Shown: positions 1 to 9,251 of the stretch, one piece after another
How positions within the stretch are numbered: position 1 is the first letter of the stretch
How the letters are laid out: each line of letters opens with the position of its first letter
Assembly (NCBI GenBank): GCA_902613175.1
Contig: CACMGJ010000010.1
Span: forward strand, 1-64,000
Direction: 5' to 3'
Length of the DNA stretch: 64,000 nucleotides
Source: Halieaceae bacterium
GTDB lineage: Bacteria > Pseudomonadota > Gammaproteobacteria > Pseudomonadales > Halieaceae
Made by a program: the position numbers and the translations under genes
Notes under the pieces: model-generated
Told to the model about the DNA's origin: nothing
The model's input: only the letters and a program-made list of their open reading frames with translations
The model's database searches: none

Positions 1-701
1 ACATCATTAAAGGCCTGATCACACCGAGTATCCCCGGAAATGGCGCGTTGGTTGTAGTCGGTCTCATCGGGACGACGGTCGTACCCTACAACCTGTTCTT
101 GCACGCCTCGACGCTGAAACGTCATGTCGCACAGGGCGTGACGTTAACCGAGGCACGACGTGACATCACTGTCTCGGTCATTGGTGGAGGCCTTATCACT
201 TTATGCATTGTAATAACGGCAGCTGCCGCACTTCATGGTGCGGGGACGTCTGTGACATCGCTAAACGACCTAGCACCCACGCTGGCACCATTACTGGGTG
301 ACTCATCCAGCATCTTTCTCGCCACTGGTTTCTTGGCGGCGGGATTGTCGTCCGCTATCACCGCACCGCTTGCTGCAGGCTATGCTGTCACTGAGATCGT
401 CACGTTACACCCCGAATTGAAAGATCGGGGTTTTCGCTGGACCTGGCAGTCCGTGATTGTCATCGGTGTTCTATTCGCCAGTCTGAACGTAAAACCGCTG
501 CAATTGATTCTGCTGGCGCAAATAGCGAATGGTGTGCTGCTGCCAATTATCGCAATCTTCATACTTTGGGTTTCGAACGACAAAACGTTGCTTGGCGAGC
601 GCTCAAATAACGCGGCGCAGAATCTTCTGGGATGCCTGGTGGTGGGTATCACACTCGCGCTCGGCTTACGCAGTATCTTGCTGGCAGCAGGATGGCTCTG
701 A
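1..701 (+). CDS. Nramp-like (YcsG-type) membrane transporter, 3' part
   Basis: The open frame runs in from the window edge, so the start codon is outside; the ORF track's first Met (TTG at 48) is internal. The visible part is about 230 residues of very hydrophobic protein with several membrane segments. A GTTVVPYNLFLHAS stretch aligns with the broken helix TM6 of the Nramp family, where metal transporters usually have A-x-x-MPH-N. The metal-ligating Met is Val here and the His is Tyr, so classical Mn/Fe transport is doubtful. The stop (699-701) lies 1 nt before the pxpA ATG, implying coupled translation. In Bacillus the Nramp-like ycsG lies beside 5-oxoprolinase genes, so a role in uptake of 5-oxoproline or a related organic solute is plausible but is inference. 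Confidence 0.85.
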   Translation, partial: IIKGLITPSIPGNGALVVVGLIGTTVVPYNLFLHASTLKRHVAQGVTLTEARRDITVSVIGGGLITLCIVITAAAALHGAGTSVTSLNDLAPTLAPLLGDSSSIFLATGFLAAGLSSAITAPLAAGYAVTEIVTLHPELKDRGFRWTWQSVIVIGVLFASLNVKPLQLILLAQIANGVLLPIIAIFILWVSNDKTLLGERSNNAAQNLLGCLVVGITLALGLRSILLAAGWL

Positions 702-702
702 G

Positions 703-1461
703 ATGTCGCGACACATCGATTTGAATTGCGACATGGGTGAAGGTGCAACCGAGGCCAGCGCCGCGCTCGATCGCGAATTGATGCGATTCATCAGCAGTTG
801 TTCGATCGCCTGTGGTGGGCATGCTGGATCTGAGAGCACCATGAGGCTCACGGTGAGGTCTGCGCTCGAGGCAGGTTTGCGAATAGGCGCGCACCCGTCC
901 TACCCTGATCGAGAAAACTTTGGCCGCCAGACAATGCCAATAACACCGGATGCCCTGTGCGCAGCGATATCCGAGCAGGTCTCTGTATTGCGGACCATTG
1001 CTGACGAGCAAGGAGGCAAGTTGAGCTTTATAAAGCCTCACGGAGCGCTTTATAACGATATGGTGCGCGACGCTGACCTTGCGGCGCTGGTCATTTACAC
1101 CATTAAATACATTGATCCGCGGTTGCAGATCATGGGTTTGGCTGGGAGTCATTGCCGCGCAATCTGCGAGGGTCTGGGGATGCAGTTCATTGGCGAGGCG
1201 TTTGCGGATCGCCGCTACGCCGATGACGGCCAGCTAAGTCCCCGATCACAAAATGGCGCTGTGATTACCGAGTCCGAGACAGTGGTAGAGCAAATCATGT
1301 CGATTGTTGAGCATGCGCGAGTCGGATCTATCAACGGTAAGTGGCTACCACTGCGAGCTCAAAGCATTTGCGTCCACAGCGACACACCGGGTGCTTTAGA
1401 ACACCTAACGCTCATCAGTAACCACCTGATCGCCCGCGGTCTAACCATCGGCGTAACATGA
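703..1461 (+). CDS. pxpA: 5-oxoprolinase subunit A (LamB/YcsF family)
   Basis: 252 residues, the usual family length. It begins with the signature IDLNCDMGEG and has CGGHAG near residue 37, GAHPSYPD near 62 and KPHGALYND near 110, all typical of the LamB/YcsF family. PxpA works with PxpB and PxpC to cleave 5-oxo-L-proline to glutamate with ATP, a cytosolic damage-repair and salvage reaction. I chose the ATG at 703, not the ORF-track start at 529, because the family N-terminus begins exactly there and it follows the transporter stop. The 3' end overlaps pxpB in an ATGA junction. The set is transporter-pxpA-pxpB-pxpC. Confidence 0.93.
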   Translation: MSRHIDLNCDMGEGATEASAALDRELMRFISSCSIACGGHAGSESTMRLTVRSALEAGLRIGAHPSYPDRENFGRQTMPITPDALCAAISEQVSVLRTIADEQGGKLSFIKPHGALYNDMVRDADLAALVIYTIKYIDPRLQIMGLAGSHCRAICEGLGMQFIGEAFADRRYADDGQLSPRSQNGAVITESETVVEQIMSIVEHARVGSINGKWLPLRAQSICVHSDTPGALEHLTLISNHLIARGLTIGVT

Positions 1462-2192
1462 CCCTATCTCTCGCATTCAAGATGGTGATTCGACCCTTCG
1501 GTGATTCAGCCCTGCTCATCGATATCGATGCCGGGAGTACCGATGCGTCAAGCGACATCGTAATGGCCCTGAATGCTCAACTGTCACAGCAGCGTACCCG
1601 CGGTATTACCCAAACGACGCCAAGCTACAACAGCCTACTCGTCTGTTTTGAGCCCGAGCAAGTGCAGCACTCCGACCTGCAAGCCAAGATCCATGCCATC
1701 GCAGATACCATCAACATCGAAGATATATCGAAGGGAAATCAGTGGTCTTTACCGGCATGCTTCGACGGGTCCTACGCGCTCGACTGCGTCGCACTCGAGA
1801 CGGAGCTATCGCAAGACTGGCAGTCCATCGTTGATTGCTTTTGCGCTGCGGAATATCGCGTCCATGCGGTTGGTTTTCTTCCCGGCTTCACTTATTTGGG
1901 GAATCTCCCGGACGCACTGCACTGCTACCGTCTGCGGGATCCGCGAGCAACTGTGCCTGCGTCATCGATTGCCATTGCCGGCACTCAAGCCGGCATTTAT
2001 CCCTTCGACTCGCCGGGCGGATGGCGGATCATAGGTCGACTTCCCTTCACTGTCTTCCAAGCTCAGGCTGACCAGCCAGCGCTATTTCAGGTCAACGATC
2101 GAATCCGCTTTGAAGCCGTCACTCCCGAGGTATTCAAAGAGTTGGAACAGCGACCCATCGCGTCACTGATCAAGCAGGCGACCCGCCGGTGA
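1458..2192 (+). CDS. pxpB: 5-oxoprolinase subunit B (KipI family)
   Basis: 244 residues. The N-terminal part has the RPFGDSALLI pattern, and the C-terminal part has GFLPGFTYLG and the SPGGWRIIGR motif of the AHS1/KipI domain. The start overlaps the pxpA stop by 4 nt (ATGA); a second Met at 1488 lies closer to the family core and could also be used. In Bacillus the homologue KipI was first described as an inhibitor of the sporulation kinase KinA. In proteobacteria, and next to pxpA and pxpC, it is best read as a subunit of ATP-dependent 5-oxoprolinase. The stop overlaps the GTG start of pxpC. Confidence 0.93.
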   Translation: MTLSLAFKMVIRPFGDSALLIDIDAGSTDASSDIVMALNAQLSQQRTRGITQTTPSYNSLLVCFEPEQVQHSDLQAKIHAIADTINIEDISKGNQWSLPACFDGSYALDCVALETELSQDWQSIVDCFCAAEYRVHAVGFLPGFTYLGNLPDALHCYRLRDPRATVPASSIAIAGTQAGIYPFDSPGGWRIIGRLPFTVFQAQADQPALFQVNDRIRFEAVTPEVFKELEQRPIASLIKQATRR

Positions 2193-3055
2193 AGCTTCAG
2201 TTCGTCACGAGTGGCTTAAGAACGACTACACAAGATTTGGGAAGGCCCGGCCATACGCATATTGGCGTACCCATGGGAGGTGCGCTCGATAGAAGTGCAA
2301 TGCGGTTCGCGAATCAGTTAGTGGGGAATGCCCTCGCCGCGCCGGTTTTGGAGGTCACGCTCTCCGGACCGCATTTACGCTGCCTTGAAGCCGGACGAGT
2401 TGCGCTTATCGGAAGCGGTTTTGATCTGCTGCTTAATGGTGAACCGCAGCCTGCGCTGCTTCCAACCTCGGTCAACCCGGGAGACGCGCTCATAATCAAG
2501 TCATCGGGAAACGGATGTCGCGCCTACCTATCAGTCTCAGGCGAGTGGCACGCTAAGCGTTGGTTGGGAAGCGCGAGCGCCCTCAGGATCGGAAGTCATG
2601 AGCTCGTGCCAGGCGCAGTCTGGACGAGAGGCGATATTCTAGAGACACGAGATAGGTCAGTAGAACCGTGGCCATCCGCGCTGCTTCCCCCCCAACCACC
2701 CAGCAATATCATCAAGGTGTCACCAGGCCCTGAGTACGAGTGGCTGGACGATCATGGCCAATCGCAGCTCCTGTCCAAGCGCATCCTGGTGATCGATCCG
2801 TCGAACCGAGTTGGTTTGCGCACCGACACCCAAATCCAACTGCGCGAGGACAAGCGCGACACTGAAATGGTGTCCTCGGGTGTTCAGCCCGGTACGGTGC
2901 AACTGACCCACGCAGGGCAAGCAATCATCCTGATGAGAGACGGGCAAACGATCGGCGGCTACCCACGCGTACTGCAGTGCGTTAGCCAGTCGCTAGACCA
3001 GCTCGCACAGATAAAGGCCGGTGATGAACTGATGCTCAGTTTGACCGATAGTTAA
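2189..3055 (+). CDS. pxpC: 5-oxoprolinase subunit C (KipA family)
   Basis: 288 residues of the AHS2/KipA (biotin-dependent carboxyltransferase-like) family. It opens with a TTTQDLGRPGH-type motif and IGVPMGGALDR, and later has SPGPEYEW and VSSGVQPGTVQ, all conserved positions of the family. The start is GTG, overlapping the pxpB stop as GTGA, so the three subunits are translated as a chain. Its stop lies 4 nt from the end of the convergent DUF3604 gene. It is expected to form the catalytic complex with PxpA and PxpB. Confidence 0.92.
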   Translation: MKLQFVTSGLRTTTQDLGRPGHTHIGVPMGGALDRSAMRFANQLVGNALAAPVLEVTLSGPHLRCLEAGRVALIGSGFDLLLNGEPQPALLPTSVNPGDALIIKSSGNGCRAYLSVSGEWHAKRWLGSASALRIGSHELVPGAVWTRGDILETRDRSVEPWPSALLPPQPPSNIIKVSPGPEYEWLDDHGQSQLLSKRILVIDPSNRVGLRTDTQIQLREDKRDTEMVSSGVQPGTVQLTHAGQAIILMRDGQTIGGYPRVLQCVSQSLDQLAQIKAGDELMLSLTDS

Positions 3056-3059
3056 GAAC

Positions 3060-5237
3060 CTACAGATCACCGGGAACAATATTGATGGGCGACGACCAGG
3101 CACGCTCTTGCAGTGTCTTTGCCAAATCCGGTCGCGGCTCTACCCCCGCCCAAATAGCGTCCCACGTCGACCACCGACAGGTTGGATTCTCGATAACACG
3201 TGCGTAATAAAAAGCACGAGTCTCGGAATCGAAGTCTGGATCGCTCCATAGCGCTGAGAGTTGGGCATCACCCGTCTCCCGATTGATGGCACAACTTGAG
3301 ATATCCACACGCGCACCGTTATCTGGACATCGGTTGGTTTCAGGGTCAACCGACGCACCTTTGGCACAGGCAACATCGATGACATCCTCGTGGGTCTGCC
3401 CTGCTTCATCTACCCAGCCTTTGATCACTTGCAATCGCTGCAGTGGTGCGCTGGATGGATCGGCCGACGCCATGATCAAGAATTTGGGTGCACCCTCTCC
3501 CTCCTCCACCATTTGAAGATCAGCACCCATGGTCACACCGGCCTCGTAAGCCCGGTCAATCCCGTCTGGCGAAGACATCATGGATTCCTCGAGATCGGCC
3601 CCGGCAAAAAAACGGATTTGAATGCGAGGACCCGATGTCGCAAAGACTTCTTTTCGTCTGAAAGCGGCGTACAGTGAGTCACGGGTGTTCTCTTCTGCCC
3701 AAGCTGCCGCCAGTCCCGATGCACCAAACGTAGGCGTCGCACCGATGATATAGACCTGACCGTTGATCTTCGAGTAGCCAGCGCCACCGCGAGGCGATGG
3801 ATTAGTCACTGCGAGCACACGACTTCCCCAATAAAAGGTTTGCGCATCCAGACCCGTGTAGGGTACCGAACCACGCTGGACAGCTTCGCTCGACAGTAAG
3901 CCCAATTTAGAGACGTAGTTGTCTTCTTCAATCGCCGCTGCACCTGAGTGAGTGTCGCTCGAGCCAATGAAACCAAACTTGTAGGGGTTTTGGCCGCCCG
4001 CGTCTTCGATCGCTAGCCCGTTGAGTAAGGCTTCCCGAGCGTAAGAGCCATTAACCGCACTCAAGGCGTTAGTTGCGACTCGGTACGGCATGATCTCAAA
4101 GCCGGCAAATTCATCTCGTGTAGACAGCAGCGGGTGCGTCTCCGAAGTGCCTTTGACCTGGGTGATTTCGACAACGGGTTCGTTGCGCATGCGCTGTTCG
4201 GCGTAGGCATCATCCAGCGGATCGCCCGCCCAATCTTCCAACTTGAACATCTGGCCATTCGAGCCGTTCGAGTTGTGCGGGATGGACAAGCTCTCCACAC
4301 CCATTGCCCGCAAATCATCCATCCAGTCCCACAAATCCTCAGGATTTACCGAATGAAAACGCGAGAATGGCTCTCGCGGTAAGCGGTCACTGCCCTTGAA
4401 GATCACGTTACGGTGCAGATTGCCCATGTCTTGGGTCGAAGCCGTGTATTCGTAAGCAACGAAGGTCGTAAAGTTACCTGGATCGTTGTGCTCATCGGCG
4501 GCGACAATAATGTCCGCCCAGGCGGATCGAATAACCCCGAGCACTTCATCCTTATCAATGTCGCCCGATCGCAAACTCCCCACCGCACTGGGCAGGAAAT
4601 TGGTAAAGGTTCTGAGTCGCTTAATTATGCTGAAAAAATCGGTGTCGTAGTTATGCGGATCATTTAGCCCGTGATACGGCGCGGCAAAATCATTTTTAGA
4701 AAACTCGGTGACGGTCTCGGCCGATGCTTTCGCCAATCCGAGAAACATTGCATGGTCAGTCACCGCATAAAAATCGAGTGGCCGTGACAGCTGCATTTCG
4801 AAACCGCCAGGGTTGGTGATGGCCTCCCCCTTGGCAAAGCGATACGCATCATAGGGCGTGGCCTGTGTCCCCATGGCATAACCATCGAAGGAATACTCGG
4901 TGTGGACGTGTAAGTCACCGTAAAACGCCGTTCGTCCTTGAGGTACCGGGGTATCGCCTTCGGCAGTGGCGGTTTCGTCGAGACCACCTGGCTCTAGCAA
5001 AACGGTGTCCGCATCAAACACGCTGGCCATCCAATTCCCTGCGGGATCCTGATCGATCAATAGCTGATCGATCTCAGCTGTGCTGGCGATAACATCGGGG
5101 TTGTTATGGACATCCGCCATCGCACTGAAAGCCTCGCTCGACTGCTCTACGGGCTCACCCGAACAGGCGGCTAATCCACCGACTGCGATCAGCAGCGCGA
5201 GCTTCTTTGAAGAAATACCATCACGACGATTCCACAT
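3060..5237 (-). CDS. DUF3604 (PHP-like) lipoprotein
   Basis: 725 residues. The N-terminus has a basic start, a hydrophobic stretch and the lipobox LAAC with Cys25, so it is probably a lipid-anchored envelope protein. A region rich in acidic residues leads to FYGDLHVHTEYSFDG near residue 106, the metal-binding HxH entry motif of DUF3604, which is distantly related to PHP-type phosphoesterases. Further metal-site-like motifs are VTDHAMFLG (about 160) and IGSSDTHSG (about 425). The family has no firmly established reaction; a metal-dependent hydrolase is the reasonable guess. Upstream is an AGAGG-type ribosome site. It ends 4 nt from pxpC in convergent orientation. Confidence 0.88.
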   Translation of the reverse strand: MWNRRDGISSKKLALLIAVGGLAACSGEPVEQSSEAFSAMADVHNNPDVIASTAEIDQLLIDQDPAGNWMASVFDADTVLLEPGGLDETATAEGDTPVPQGRTAFYGDLHVHTEYSFDGYAMGTQATPYDAYRFAKGEAITNPGGFEMQLSRPLDFYAVTDHAMFLGLAKASAETVTEFSKNDFAAPYHGLNDPHNYDTDFFSIIKRLRTFTNFLPSAVGSLRSGDIDKDEVLGVIRSAWADIIVAADEHNDPGNFTTFVAYEYTASTQDMGNLHRNVIFKGSDRLPREPFSRFHSVNPEDLWDWMDDLRAMGVESLSIPHNSNGSNGQMFKLEDWAGDPLDDAYAEQRMRNEPVVEITQVKGTSETHPLLSTRDEFAGFEIMPYRVATNALSAVNGSYAREALLNGLAIEDAGGQNPYKFGFIGSSDTHSGAAAIEEDNYVSKLGLLSSEAVQRGSVPYTGLDAQTFYWGSRVLAVTNPSPRGGAGYSKINGQVYIIGATPTFGASGLAAAWAEENTRDSLYAAFRRKEVFATSGPRIQIRFFAGADLEESMMSSPDGIDRAYEAGVTMGADLQMVEEGEGAPKFLIMASADPSSAPLQRLQVIKGWVDEAGQTHEDVIDVACAKGASVDPETNRCPDNGARVDISSCAINRETGDAQLSALWSDPDFDSETRAFYYARVIENPTCRWSTWDAIWAGVEPRPDLAKTLQERAWSSPINIVPGDL

Positions 5238-6006: not shown

Positions 6007-7395
6007 TTAACCAAAGTGCATGAAGCCTAGATCTGCGGCATTAAAATTAGCCAGTGTTGGAAAGGTCTCGGCAATTTGAGACGGTGTCAGTCCGTACCAG
6101 CCTGCAAGGGTAGCCGCATATTGATCGACCGAGGTTGTCGGAATGATTCGGCCTTCACCAATGTCATCGTTACTCCCGATAGCGAGCTCTGGCATCGTGC
6201 CAAAAATTTTACCGCCATCGACACCATCACCCATGACCATTTGGTGGCTACCCCAACCATGGTCCGTACCATCGCCATTGCTGGTCAGAGTTCGACCAAA
6301 ATCACTGGCAGTAAAGGTAGTGACCTTATCAGACACACCCAGCTCGACCGTTTCGTTGTAAAACGAGGTCAGCGCGTGATTGAGCTCGTTCATGAGCGTC
6401 GGATGTCGATTGATTTGATCACCGTGCGTGTCGTAGTCGCCGATGCCCACAAAAAAGATTTGGCGCTTCATTCCAAGCTGTTGTCGAGCGGCAATCAGAT
6501 GCGACACCATCCTTAACATTGAGGCGAGACGGCTCGATCCATCGAATGCTGTCTGCGGAGCGCTCACTGCATTCAGTGCCTGGCGCAGCTCAATACCCAA
6601 ATCGATAGAACGTCTTTGAGTGCGAGCGAATTCCGTCGCAAACAGATGAGACTGAGACTGTGCGAGCAAGGCATCGTAGGCGGCATTGCGTCTCACCGAC
6701 CACTCCTCCGCATTGCCCGGCTGCAGGGACCAATAGTCGTTTACCCCACCTGCACCAATAGCGTAAGGCGCCTGAACACCGCCCGTCTGGAACGTATTCG
6801 ATCCGCTCAAGGTGATGTTCATCGAGAGGTTCTGATTCGTATTGGTGTCGATCATAAGATCAGCAATGCGACTCGCCCAACCCTGACGATTCCGGTTCGA
6901 CTGAAGGCTCAGCACAAAATTTTGCTGATCGTTATGAGAGAAAAGCTGCGGCGGCAGCTCCACCCGTTGATTAACGTAATCCGACTGCAGTGTGGGCTCG
7001 ATCAACGTCCCCACATTACCAATGAGTGAGAGCTTGCCGTCGTCAAATAGGTTCTTCAGATCCGGCATCTGAGGGTGCAAACCGTAGTCGGCGGGTAAGC
7101 TATTAGTTGGATTTAAGGGCAGTAAATCTTCACGCGCTATCGCGAGACTGCGGCGCGTGTCAGCGTAGGTTGTGTGCTCGCCCAGCGACCTCGGGACCAA
7201 CATGTTGAATGCGTCATTGCCTCCGTAAAGGAAGACACAAACCAACGCTCGGTAATCATCAGCGCCACCGACTTGCGCATGTGCCAGATTAAATTGTGTT
7301 GTCAATGCGGAGAGACTCGAGCTACCGACGGCAGCAAGTGCTGAGCGCCGAATAAAGTTGCGCCGGTCGATCATCGAAGGTTTGCATGCTTTCAT
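6007..7395 (-). CDS. DUF1501 protein with Tat-type signal
   Basis: 462 residues. The start was moved from 7440 to the ATG at 7395 because AGGAG lies 8 nt upstream and the longer form would run into the DUF1800 gene. The N-terminus has a twin-arginine-like DRRNFIRRS followed by a hydrophobic stretch ending in AHAQ, so export in folded form is likely. Then come VFLYGGNDAFNMLVP, IGDYDTHGDQ and SDFGRTLTSNGDGTDHGWGSH, all hallmarks of the DUF1501 family, which is structurally alkaline-phosphatase/sulfatase-like. Its partner DUF1800 gene ends 11 nt upstream, and that gene's TAG lies inside this Shine-Dalgarno sequence. Function unknown. Confidence 0.9.
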   Translation of the reverse strand: MKACKPSMIDRRNFIRRSALAAVGSSSLSALTTQFNLAHAQVGGADDYRALVCVFLYGGNDAFNMLVPRSLGEHTTYADTRRSLAIAREDLLPLNPTNSLPADYGLHPQMPDLKNLFDDGKLSLIGNVGTLIEPTLQSDYVNQRVELPPQLFSHNDQQNFVLSLQSNRNRQGWASRIADLMIDTNTNQNLSMNITLSGSNTFQTGGVQAPYAIGAGGVNDYWSLQPGNAEEWSVRRNAAYDALLAQSQSHLFATEFARTQRRSIDLGIELRQALNAVSAPQTAFDGSSRLASMLRMVSHLIAARQQLGMKRQIFFVGIGDYDTHGDQINRHPTLMNELNHALTSFYNETVELGVSDKVTTFTASDFGRTLTSNGDGTDHGWGSHQMVMGDGVDGGKIFGTMPELAIGSNDDIGEGRIIPTTSVDQYAATLAGWYGLTPSQIAETFPTLANFNAADLGFMHFG

Positions 7396-7406
7396 CTGAT
7401 TCACTC

Positions 7407-9251
7407 CTAGCGCTGCACGGCAAATTCGGGCGACATCCACATCAGATAAGTCGCTTCGGCCACTCGGTAGAGGCGCTGTTGTTCGTCATTGGGGTCAAAC
7501 GGTTCAATGTGATCGGCGATCACGCCGCGCATGTCATCGCTCATACCACCTGCCATCATGAGAACATTGAGGTGGTCGAGCAGTTCATCCGTATTTTTTG
7601 CGAGCTCAATTTCATCCTCGAACTTCGCATACAAGCAACCGACCCCTGCTTCGAAGTCGAGGTTCTCCTCACAGCCATCGCGCAAAAAATCATAGGAGTT
7701 AAACACAATGGATCCACCCCAATTTGAGGCCATGGTGATGTTTTTTTCATTCAGAATCTGGAATTCAGGACTCACGACATCAGCGCCGCCAAAGGCATTG
7801 GCTGGCTTGTAATCCGGTCGGTAGAAATTAAAGACCGAGGGGGAACCGTAGGGTCTCTGACCGTAATCGTAGCCGGGCCCGAAAAATCGTATCGTTTCTC
7901 GCTCAACTGACCCGTCCTCAGTCAGCGGTTGAAAGGCCTCGACATGGAAAGCGCGCATCAAAGCGGAAAATTTGAGAATGGGCTCTTTGAGTTTACCGAA
8001 GGTCTCGCGTGTCTCTGGGCTAAGTTGCCTTGCCTCATCATCGAGCAAGATCGCTCGTGCAACGGCTTCCAGATCACCCTTCTCGCCACTGCCGTTGTCG
8101 TTGAACACCGCACTTACTCTGGCCACATACTCAGGTGACGGGTTACTGGTCACCAGACGCTGAATGAGTTGTTTACTCACAAAGGGCGCCACGTTCCGGT
8201 GCGCAAATACATTGTCTAACGCCGCATCAAGGTCCTGCTGAGCTGTCTGTCCCGCTGGCAAGACTTCACCGTTCAATAAGGTCTTTGTATGAGTATCGTG
8301 GTACGCCTCAAACGGCTTCATTGCCAGAGTCGTGCTCTCATTAAACCAGTCAGCCCAATACCAGTAAGGCGCGTTACTGTACATCCACCCTGTAAAGACG
8401 CTGGCAAAGGCTTTCGTGATCTCCTGATCGTAAGTTGGAATAGGGTTTCCACCCTCATCCAACCTGACAGTCCCATCATCATTCAGTTCGACCAAGCCAA
8501 TCGTGAACAGTTGCATCATTTCTCGGGCGTAGTTCTCGTCCGGGCGAATATTGCGTGACGCATCTGCCTTTTCGTTACGCACCATACTGAGGTACTCGCC
8601 CATCATGGGATTTAGGGTCACCGCCTCCAGTAAGTCTCGATAATTTCCAAACGCGTGGTCGGTCATGATGTCGTGATAATTCGCTATGCCCCTTGCATCA
8701 TTGAACAGCGCATCTGACAAATCAGAGATGACAAAAATCTGGCTCAAAGCGAAGGCAACCCGTTGGCGTAACTGGTCTTCGCCATGAACAAATCGCTCCC
8801 ACAATATATCGCTGGTGAGCATGCGTTTCTGCCAATCGAGCTCCAAGTTTCGCTTGTTGCTCGGTTCTAAGCCCGAAGCCCGCATATGCGCATCGAGACC
8901 TTCGAGGATTAGTGAAGGCGTCGCTGCCACCTGTTCATCAATCCAGGCATCAAAATCACCATTGGATTCGTACAGTGCCTTGATTTCCGACTCGGTCGGA
9001 CCAAAGGTCGCCTGAGTCAGAAAGCGCGTTACATTAAGCGCCCGCTCATTGCCCACCATCTCTCTGAGCTCTAGTGGCTCGGGCGGCGCAGGTGGGGGAT
9101 TTGTCGCGGCTCCGCCCCCTGAAGACCCAGAACTGTCTACTACTGGAGTTGATATAGGAAGCGAAGACCCACCTCCCCCACCACAGGCAACCATCAGCAC
9201 CAGTGACATAGCCACCACAAAACGACTGAATAACGCCACGATTTCCCCCAT
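7407..9251 (-). CDS. DUF1800 lipoprotein
   Basis: 614 residues. The signal sequence ends in the lipobox MVAC (Cys23), followed by a run of five glycines and a Ser/Gly/Pro linker, so this is probably an outer-membrane-facing lipoprotein. The body matches DUF1800: ATFGPTESEI, a WERFVHGEDQLRQRVAFALSQ-type helix, MMQLFTIGL and VFTGW. It forms a two-gene unit with the downstream DUF1501 gene. Such pairs are common in marine and planctomycete genomes, but their biochemical role is not established. A divergent promoter region separates it from the small gene at 9430. Confidence 0.9.
   Translation of the reverse strand: MGEIVALFSRFVVAMSLVLMVACGGGGGSSLPISTPVVDSSGSSGGGAATNPPPAPPEPLELREMVGNERALNVTRFLTQATFGPTESEIKALYESNGDFDAWIDEQVAATPSLILEGLDAHMRASGLEPSNKRNLELDWQKRMLTSDILWERFVHGEDQLRQRVAFALSQIFVISDLSDALFNDARGIANYHDIMTDHAFGNYRDLLEAVTLNPMMGEYLSMVRNEKADASRNIRPDENYAREMMQLFTIGLVELNDDGTVRLDEGGNPIPTYDQEITKAFASVFTGWMYSNAPYWYWADWFNESTTLAMKPFEAYHDTHTKTLLNGEVLPAGQTAQQDLDAALDNVFAHRNVAPFVSKQLIQRLVTSNPSPEYVARVSAVFNDNGSGEKGDLEAVARAILLDDEARQLSPETRETFGKLKEPILKFSALMRAFHVEAFQPLTEDGSVERETIRFFGPGYDYGQRPYGSPSVFNFYRPDYKPANAFGGADVVSPEFQILNEKNITMASNWGGSIVFNSYDFLRDGCEENLDFEAGVGCLYAKFEDEIELAKNTDELLDHLNVLMMAGGMSDDMRGVIADHIEPFDPNDEQQRLYRVAEATYLMWMSPEFAVQR

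Follow-up and report, generated by a model that had tools for sequence, protein, structure and literature searches.

The window analysed here, a stretch of 64,000 nucleotides from a Halieaceae bacterium, opens with four genes on the forward strand. The first (3..701) encodes the C-terminal 232 amino acids, from TM6 to the end, of an Nramp-fold transporter (PF01566, E 2.3e-47, profile positions 145-356 of 357), and it is followed by the genes for the three subunits of 5-oxoprolinase, pxpA (703..1461; PF03746, E 1.8e-86, and above the cut-off of NCBIfam NF003814), pxpB (1458..2192; PF02682, E 2.1e-56) and pxpC (2189..3055, with a GTG start; PF02626, E 1.2e-61). The PF03746, PF02682 and PF02626 proteins are thus encoded together, and the PxpA, PxpB and PxpC families are also matched in NCBIfam, although PxpB, whose gene has an alternative ATG at 1482, scores 132.7 bits on TIGR00370, just under the cut-off of 145.55. 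The pxpABC genes were reportedly described in a 2017 paper. A single base separates the transporter stop codon (TGA, 699-701) from the pxpA start codon at 703, giving a TGA-G-ATG junction at 699..705 on the forward strand, and the pxpA/pxpB and pxpB/pxpC junctions each overlap by four nucleotides (ATGA and GTGA, respectively). An earlier note on this DNA had described these three junctions correctly, and its proposal that the four genes form one functional unit is supported both by them and by the conserved co-occurrence with 5-oxoprolinase genes described below. The unit is ended by a convergent DUF3604 gene (3060..5237, reverse strand; PF12228, E 2.5e-222), which is kept 3' of pxpC in eight relatives and lies outside the 5-oxoproline pathway; beyond it, at 6007-7440, is a gene for a DUF1501 protein.

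The transporter reading frame is open at its 5' end. Because contig 10 ends at base 1 of the window, almost half of the protein has been cut off, TM1 with it, a point that the earlier note had not raised. Its scores fall under the cut-offs of the NCBIfam Nramp models, which is expected for a fragment and would also fit with divergence. In the source assembly (1.9 Mb, 59% complete) it is the sole Nramp match, and it adjoins the sole pxpA match. A full-length relative that is 96% identical to the window protein (L004) spans 441 codons from stop to stop.

We examined the 80 nearest homologues, 79 of which have enough downstream sequence to be scored. The next gene on the same strand is pxpA in 59 of these 79 loci, so that the co-occurrence in other genomes on which the earlier note had made its reading depend is indeed found. 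The median gap between transporter and pxpA is 1 nt over the 54 measurable cases, though start codons for these counts were chosen by script and single values may be off; a 1-nt gap is also seen in L128, L129, L130, L132, L133 and L151. Within the genus, for which Luminiphilus is the nearest named record among the relatives, a close homologue occurs in 16 genomes including that of the window and pxpA is adjacent in all 16, the fifteen other homologues being 58-96% identical to the window transporter. Outside the genus the pxpA-linked loci are mostly from Bacteroidota, and in Natroniella and its relatives the transporter gene lies between pxpA and a D-glutamate cyclase gene on one side and pxpB and pxpC on the other. 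No pxpA was found within about 1.5 kb of any of ten NRMT- or MntH-type loci. We conclude that the adjacency of transporter and pxpA is not due to chance.

The linkage is not universal. There is no oxoprolinase gene within reach at 16 of the 79 nearest loci, and the transporter is lacking from many genomes that encode pxpABC. Among 28 genomes in which the transporter is not beside pxpA, 21 encode pxpA at another place. In two of the remaining seven a fused HyuAB adjoins the transporter, and another three contain HyuA or HyuB homologues, whose commonness makes them weak evidence. The unlinked members from Pseudidiomarina, Colwellia, Pseudoalteromonas and a second type in Luminiphilus have no lactam gene adjoining the transporter, and pxpA is present in nearly all of their genomes. 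In an order-level sample, pxpA was present in 6/6 transporter-positive genomes against 16/35 transporter-negative ones (two-sided Fisher test, p = 0.023, which like the genus-level test below carries no correction for phylogeny). A search of a viral contig collection gave no matches.

Further variants are found in and around the genus. A distant, unlinked member of the clade (L115-L121, 33-41% identical) is present in 22 genomes of the genus, in several of them close to genes that encode a PLP-dependent enzyme and a sulfatase; HNH, MoxR and DUF58 genes lie on its opposite side. It is absent from all 16 genomes with the pxp-linked type (0/16 against 22/41, Fisher 1.3e-4). We leave this exclusion out of the argument, since the species tree by itself might account for it. 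Other genomes of the genus contain a different pxpABC, about 23-39% identical (L134-L150, 17 loci, for example L136:4762-10699), in a conserved cluster that comprises genes for D-glutamate cyclase, PxpA, PxpB, PxpC, a GLUCM-like_C protein, a class IV aminotransferase and alanine racemase and has no transporter gene; the gene set suggests a route that leads from D-amino acids via D-glutamate and internally made 5-oxoproline. On a Leisingera plasmid (L187), TRAP transporter genes directly precede two genes of the urea-amidolyase family (one annotated as allophanate hydrolase subunit 1, the other as urea amidolyase) and pxpA, and there is no Nramp-fold gene; the TRAP genes are thus another type of transporter for what seems to be the same pathway.

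In canonical Nramps the metal ligands are an Asp and an Asn in TM1 together with a Met in TM6; in the Deinococcus radiodurans protein the strictly conserved motif consists of D56, N59 and M230, and the D56A variant is inactive in transport (PMC13060092). TM6 can be read directly in the window, where TTVVPY (72..89, forward strand) occupies the site that is (A/C)xxMPH in metal-transporting Nramps, while TM1 and TM3, which lie outside the window fragment, were read in relatives. The TM6 Ala, Met and His are replaced by Thr, Val and Tyr in 123/124 aligned homologues, the one exception (L168) being outside the clade, whereas Escherichia coli MntH has the Met and the His; haloarchaeal members have VGY for VPY. 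At TM1 the DPGN of Nramp has become GPGT in nearly all relatives, including those 96%, 94% and 91% identical to the window protein, with Asp to Gly in 122/122 and Asn to Thr in 120/122 of the homologues readable in the alignment. At TM3, Asn takes the place of the proton-path Glu in the clade. The fold is nevertheless that of the family, since an AF2 model of a 62% identical relative (L033, pLDDT 91.3) has Nramp and NRMT as its best matches among solved structures. Judged by its residues, the clade protein would not be a metal transporter, and the replaced ligands rule out an ordinary MntH.

The substitutions recall a group already described. In Cellier 2023 (PMC10606218), SLC11 models were given Thr, Val and Tyr in place of the TM6 Ala, Met and His, together with Tyr and Asn at TM3, to mimic an 'orphan' outgroup of SLC11 within PF01566; in the passages of that paper searched, no substrate is named for this outgroup. 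The clade shows the same pattern, with Thr, Val and Tyr at TM6 in the window and Tyr and Asn at TM3, plus extra invariant glycines, in the relatives. Since the set of substitutions matches, the window clade is very probably the orphan outgroup, as far as that described pattern alone can identify it.

The earlier note had also drawn a parallel with ycsG of Bacillus. For the Corynebacterium glutamicum homologue PxpT, 50% identical to YcsG, the gene is needed for growth on 5-oxoproline, a phenotype that was complemented, and the protein acts in uptake, although its authors leave metal transport possible (PMC13274462). YcsG itself has been reported as a Mn2+ importer, since overexpression raised cellular Mn; a triple mntH mntA ycsG mutant could not be made, and doubt was cast on the 5-oxoproline phenotype as a potential polar effect (PMC10448178). 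As stand-ins for B. subtilis YcsG we used pxpA-linked YcsG-type proteins of Bacillus badius, L. plantarum and Gram-negatives. The gene order in B. badius is pxpA, NRAMP, hydro-lyase, which we take to be the ycsF-ycsG-ycsI order. The YcsG-type proteins (from B. badius, L. plantarum, Shinella, Aureimonas, Enterobacter, Proteus and Fusobacterium, and one from Paracoccus) form a clade with support of 100 and a stem of 2.5, apart from the window clade, and the node joining the two has support of 75. Those of B. badius and L. plantarum are 17-25% identical to the window clade, about as far from it as MntH, and the integrative YcsG model 9a52 is 17% identical to the L033 model (Foldseek). With these stand-in sequences, identity and separate clades rule out orthology to YcsG/PxpT: the window transporter lies outside the YcsG branch and does not have its signature, and has in common with it the adjacency to pxpA. 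The parallel is one of analogy. Two Nramp-fold branches thus accompany 5-oxoprolinase, and the PxpT/YcsG phenotype is not transferable by orthology. All eight YcsG-type proteins also lack the metal ligands, having GPGF and GGTVGGY, residues that speak against an ordinary metal site in YcsG-type proteins and, insofar as the stand-ins represent it, would do so for B. subtilis YcsG.

Two observations concern the surroundings of this second branch. An Nramp-family protein from Rhizobiaceae (L168:4588-5772), with GPGN at TM1 and TNFSINAAF at TM6, groups with the YcsG branch (support 96); its gene is preceded by one of the dihydrodipicolinate-synthase family, and it could represent one more branch without a metal substrate. 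In Enterobacter asburiae, an IncF-type plasmid (L192, and similar loci) carries genes for a YcsG-type transporter, PxpA, a hydro-lyase and urea-amidolyase-family proteins, and Klebsiella accounts for 93 of the 168 plasmid records with a YcsG-type match.

Within the window clade the partner enzyme can be exchanged. At ten haloarchaeal plasmid loci the transporter gene is directly followed by those for HyuA and HyuB of the hydantoinase/oxoprolinase family, which are non-homologous to PxpABC; a CopG-type regulator usually precedes the transporter, and an Asp/Glu-racemase-family gene lies 3' in several. In two Bacteroidota MAGs the transporter gene is located 22-25 nt upstream of one encoding a fused HyuA-HyuB of 1252 amino acids. 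Both HyuAB-linked groups fall among pxp-linked relatives in the tree: the haloarchaeal proteins are sister to the sequence of Natroniella, itself linked to pxp, at a support of 0.999, and those of the two MAGs branch within the pxp-linked Bacteroidota. HyuAB enzymes vary in substrate and that of these proteins is uncertain, their best sequence matches including N-methylhydantoinase, caprolactamase and 5-oxoprolinase; caprolactamase models and N-methylhydantoinase give the haloarchaeal pair its top scores, and in haloarchaea the substrates may therefore be hydantoin-like lactams. The theme common to the PxpABC and HyuAB partners is a five-ring lactam, and the occurrence of one transporter beside two unrelated lactam-opening enzymes points to a shared lactam and not to metals.

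The loss of the metal ligands and the operon with an enzyme that opens 5-oxoproline together suggest that the clade transporter is probably an importer of 5-oxoproline, or of a close lactam, and we regard this as the likely reading. The operon, its conservation, the ligand loss and the enzyme swap can be read from the sequences; from them we infer the substrate, the direction of import and the ion coupling. Clade-wide ligand loss and the replacement of PxpABC by unrelated HyuAB, two observations that extend those of the earlier note, likewise favour the non-metal solute that it had envisaged. Replacement of Asp by Gly in the broken helix of TM1 (DPGN to GPGT) would remove a metal ligand and leave a glycine-rich turn that might resemble the GSG-type turn. 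In amino-acid transporters of the same superfamily, a turn of the GSG type holds substrate carboxylates. The carboxylate of 5-oxoproline could bind at the glycine-rich turn of TM1 in the clade. As the proton-path residues (TM1 Asp, TM3 Glu and TM6 His) are all replaced, coupling must differ from that of metal-transporting Nramps.

One competing idea is that the protein imports other cyclic amides, such as hydantoins or carboxylated lactams, with 5-oxoproline just one substrate. The haloarchaeal HyuAB, matching caprolactamase and N-methylhydantoinase as well as 5-oxoprolinase, and the racemase-family protein added in several of those operons would fit with this, but PxpABC, a known 5-oxoprolinase, is by far the commonest partner, and no hydantoin gene was found near the transporter-pxpABC unit among the window genes examined; we consider it rather unlikely. 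An ordinary Nramp Mn2+ importer that happens to share its regulation with nitrogen genes, which has been claimed for B. subtilis YcsG (MntG), would explain the PF01566 match and the Nramp fold, and it could draw on the raised Mn upon YcsG overexpression and the unobtainable triple mutant (PMC10448178). It is made improbable by the replacement of all TM1 and TM6 side-chain ligands in the clade, and also in the pxp-linked YcsG-type proteins, by that of the proton-path residues, and by the fact that YcsG is not an orthologue.

A Mg2+ transporter of the NRMT kind comes to mind because EleNRMT is one of the best matches in fold as well as in sequence. The NRMT-type sequences compared here, however, have DNDAGG and TTIxPW (or NDAGG and TTITPY) where the clade has GPGT and TTVVPY, and they form a separate clade with support of 100; signature and clade rule out NRMT identity, and transport of this kind is very improbable. 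Gene context alone gives no direction, and 5-oxoproline arises spontaneously in cells (PMC13274462), so an exporter, or an overflow valve, that disposes of internally made 5-oxoproline or glutamate has to be weighed too. Yet the alternative pxpABC cluster of the genus, with genes expected to make 5-oxoproline internally, is the one without a transporter, and in the other branch PxpT serves uptake (PMC13274462), leaving export as the least credible of these alternatives.

Import of 5-oxoproline by the clade would have several consequences. Among the matches listed, all haloarchaeal plasmid homologues that carry an annotation are called 'Nramp family divalent metal transporter', and inferences about metal homeostasis drawn from clade members would therefore be wrong. 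For the orphan outgroup, with which the Nramp family has been rooted, the clade suggests what the substrate might be. We offer more tentatively, at somewhat less than an even chance, that the whole outgroup consists of importers of 5-oxoproline-type lactams and that, with the YcsG branch, transport of organic solutes has originated or survived on the Nramp fold, next to metal transport, on more than one occasion. The disagreement about YcsG (Mn2+ or 5-oxoproline) becomes testable in a second branch, and the clade offers a natural case for comparing how a single fold is adapted to carry a small organic acid instead of metal ions.

As a kind, an Nramp-family transporter of 5-oxoproline has been published before, for YcsG/PxpT (PMC13274462); relative to the open-access literature, the new elements here are this branch, the absence of metal ligands from it, the exchange of its partner enzyme and its distinctness from YcsG. 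With canonical Nramp/MntH the window clade has the fold and family profile in common, but it has neither DPGN nor MPH and its TM3 Glu is replaced. NRMT belongs to the same family and fold and differs in its TM1 and TM6 signatures and in its clade. The described orphan outgroup has in common with the window clade Thr, Val and Tyr at TM6, Tyr and Asn at TM3, and extra invariant glycines. YcsG/PxpT resembles it in the PF01566 fold, the operon with pxpA, the lost metal ligands and a probable uptake of 5-oxoproline, but has GPGF at TM1 and GGTVGGY at TM6 in place of GPGT and TTVVPY, and stands as a separate, long-stemmed clade.
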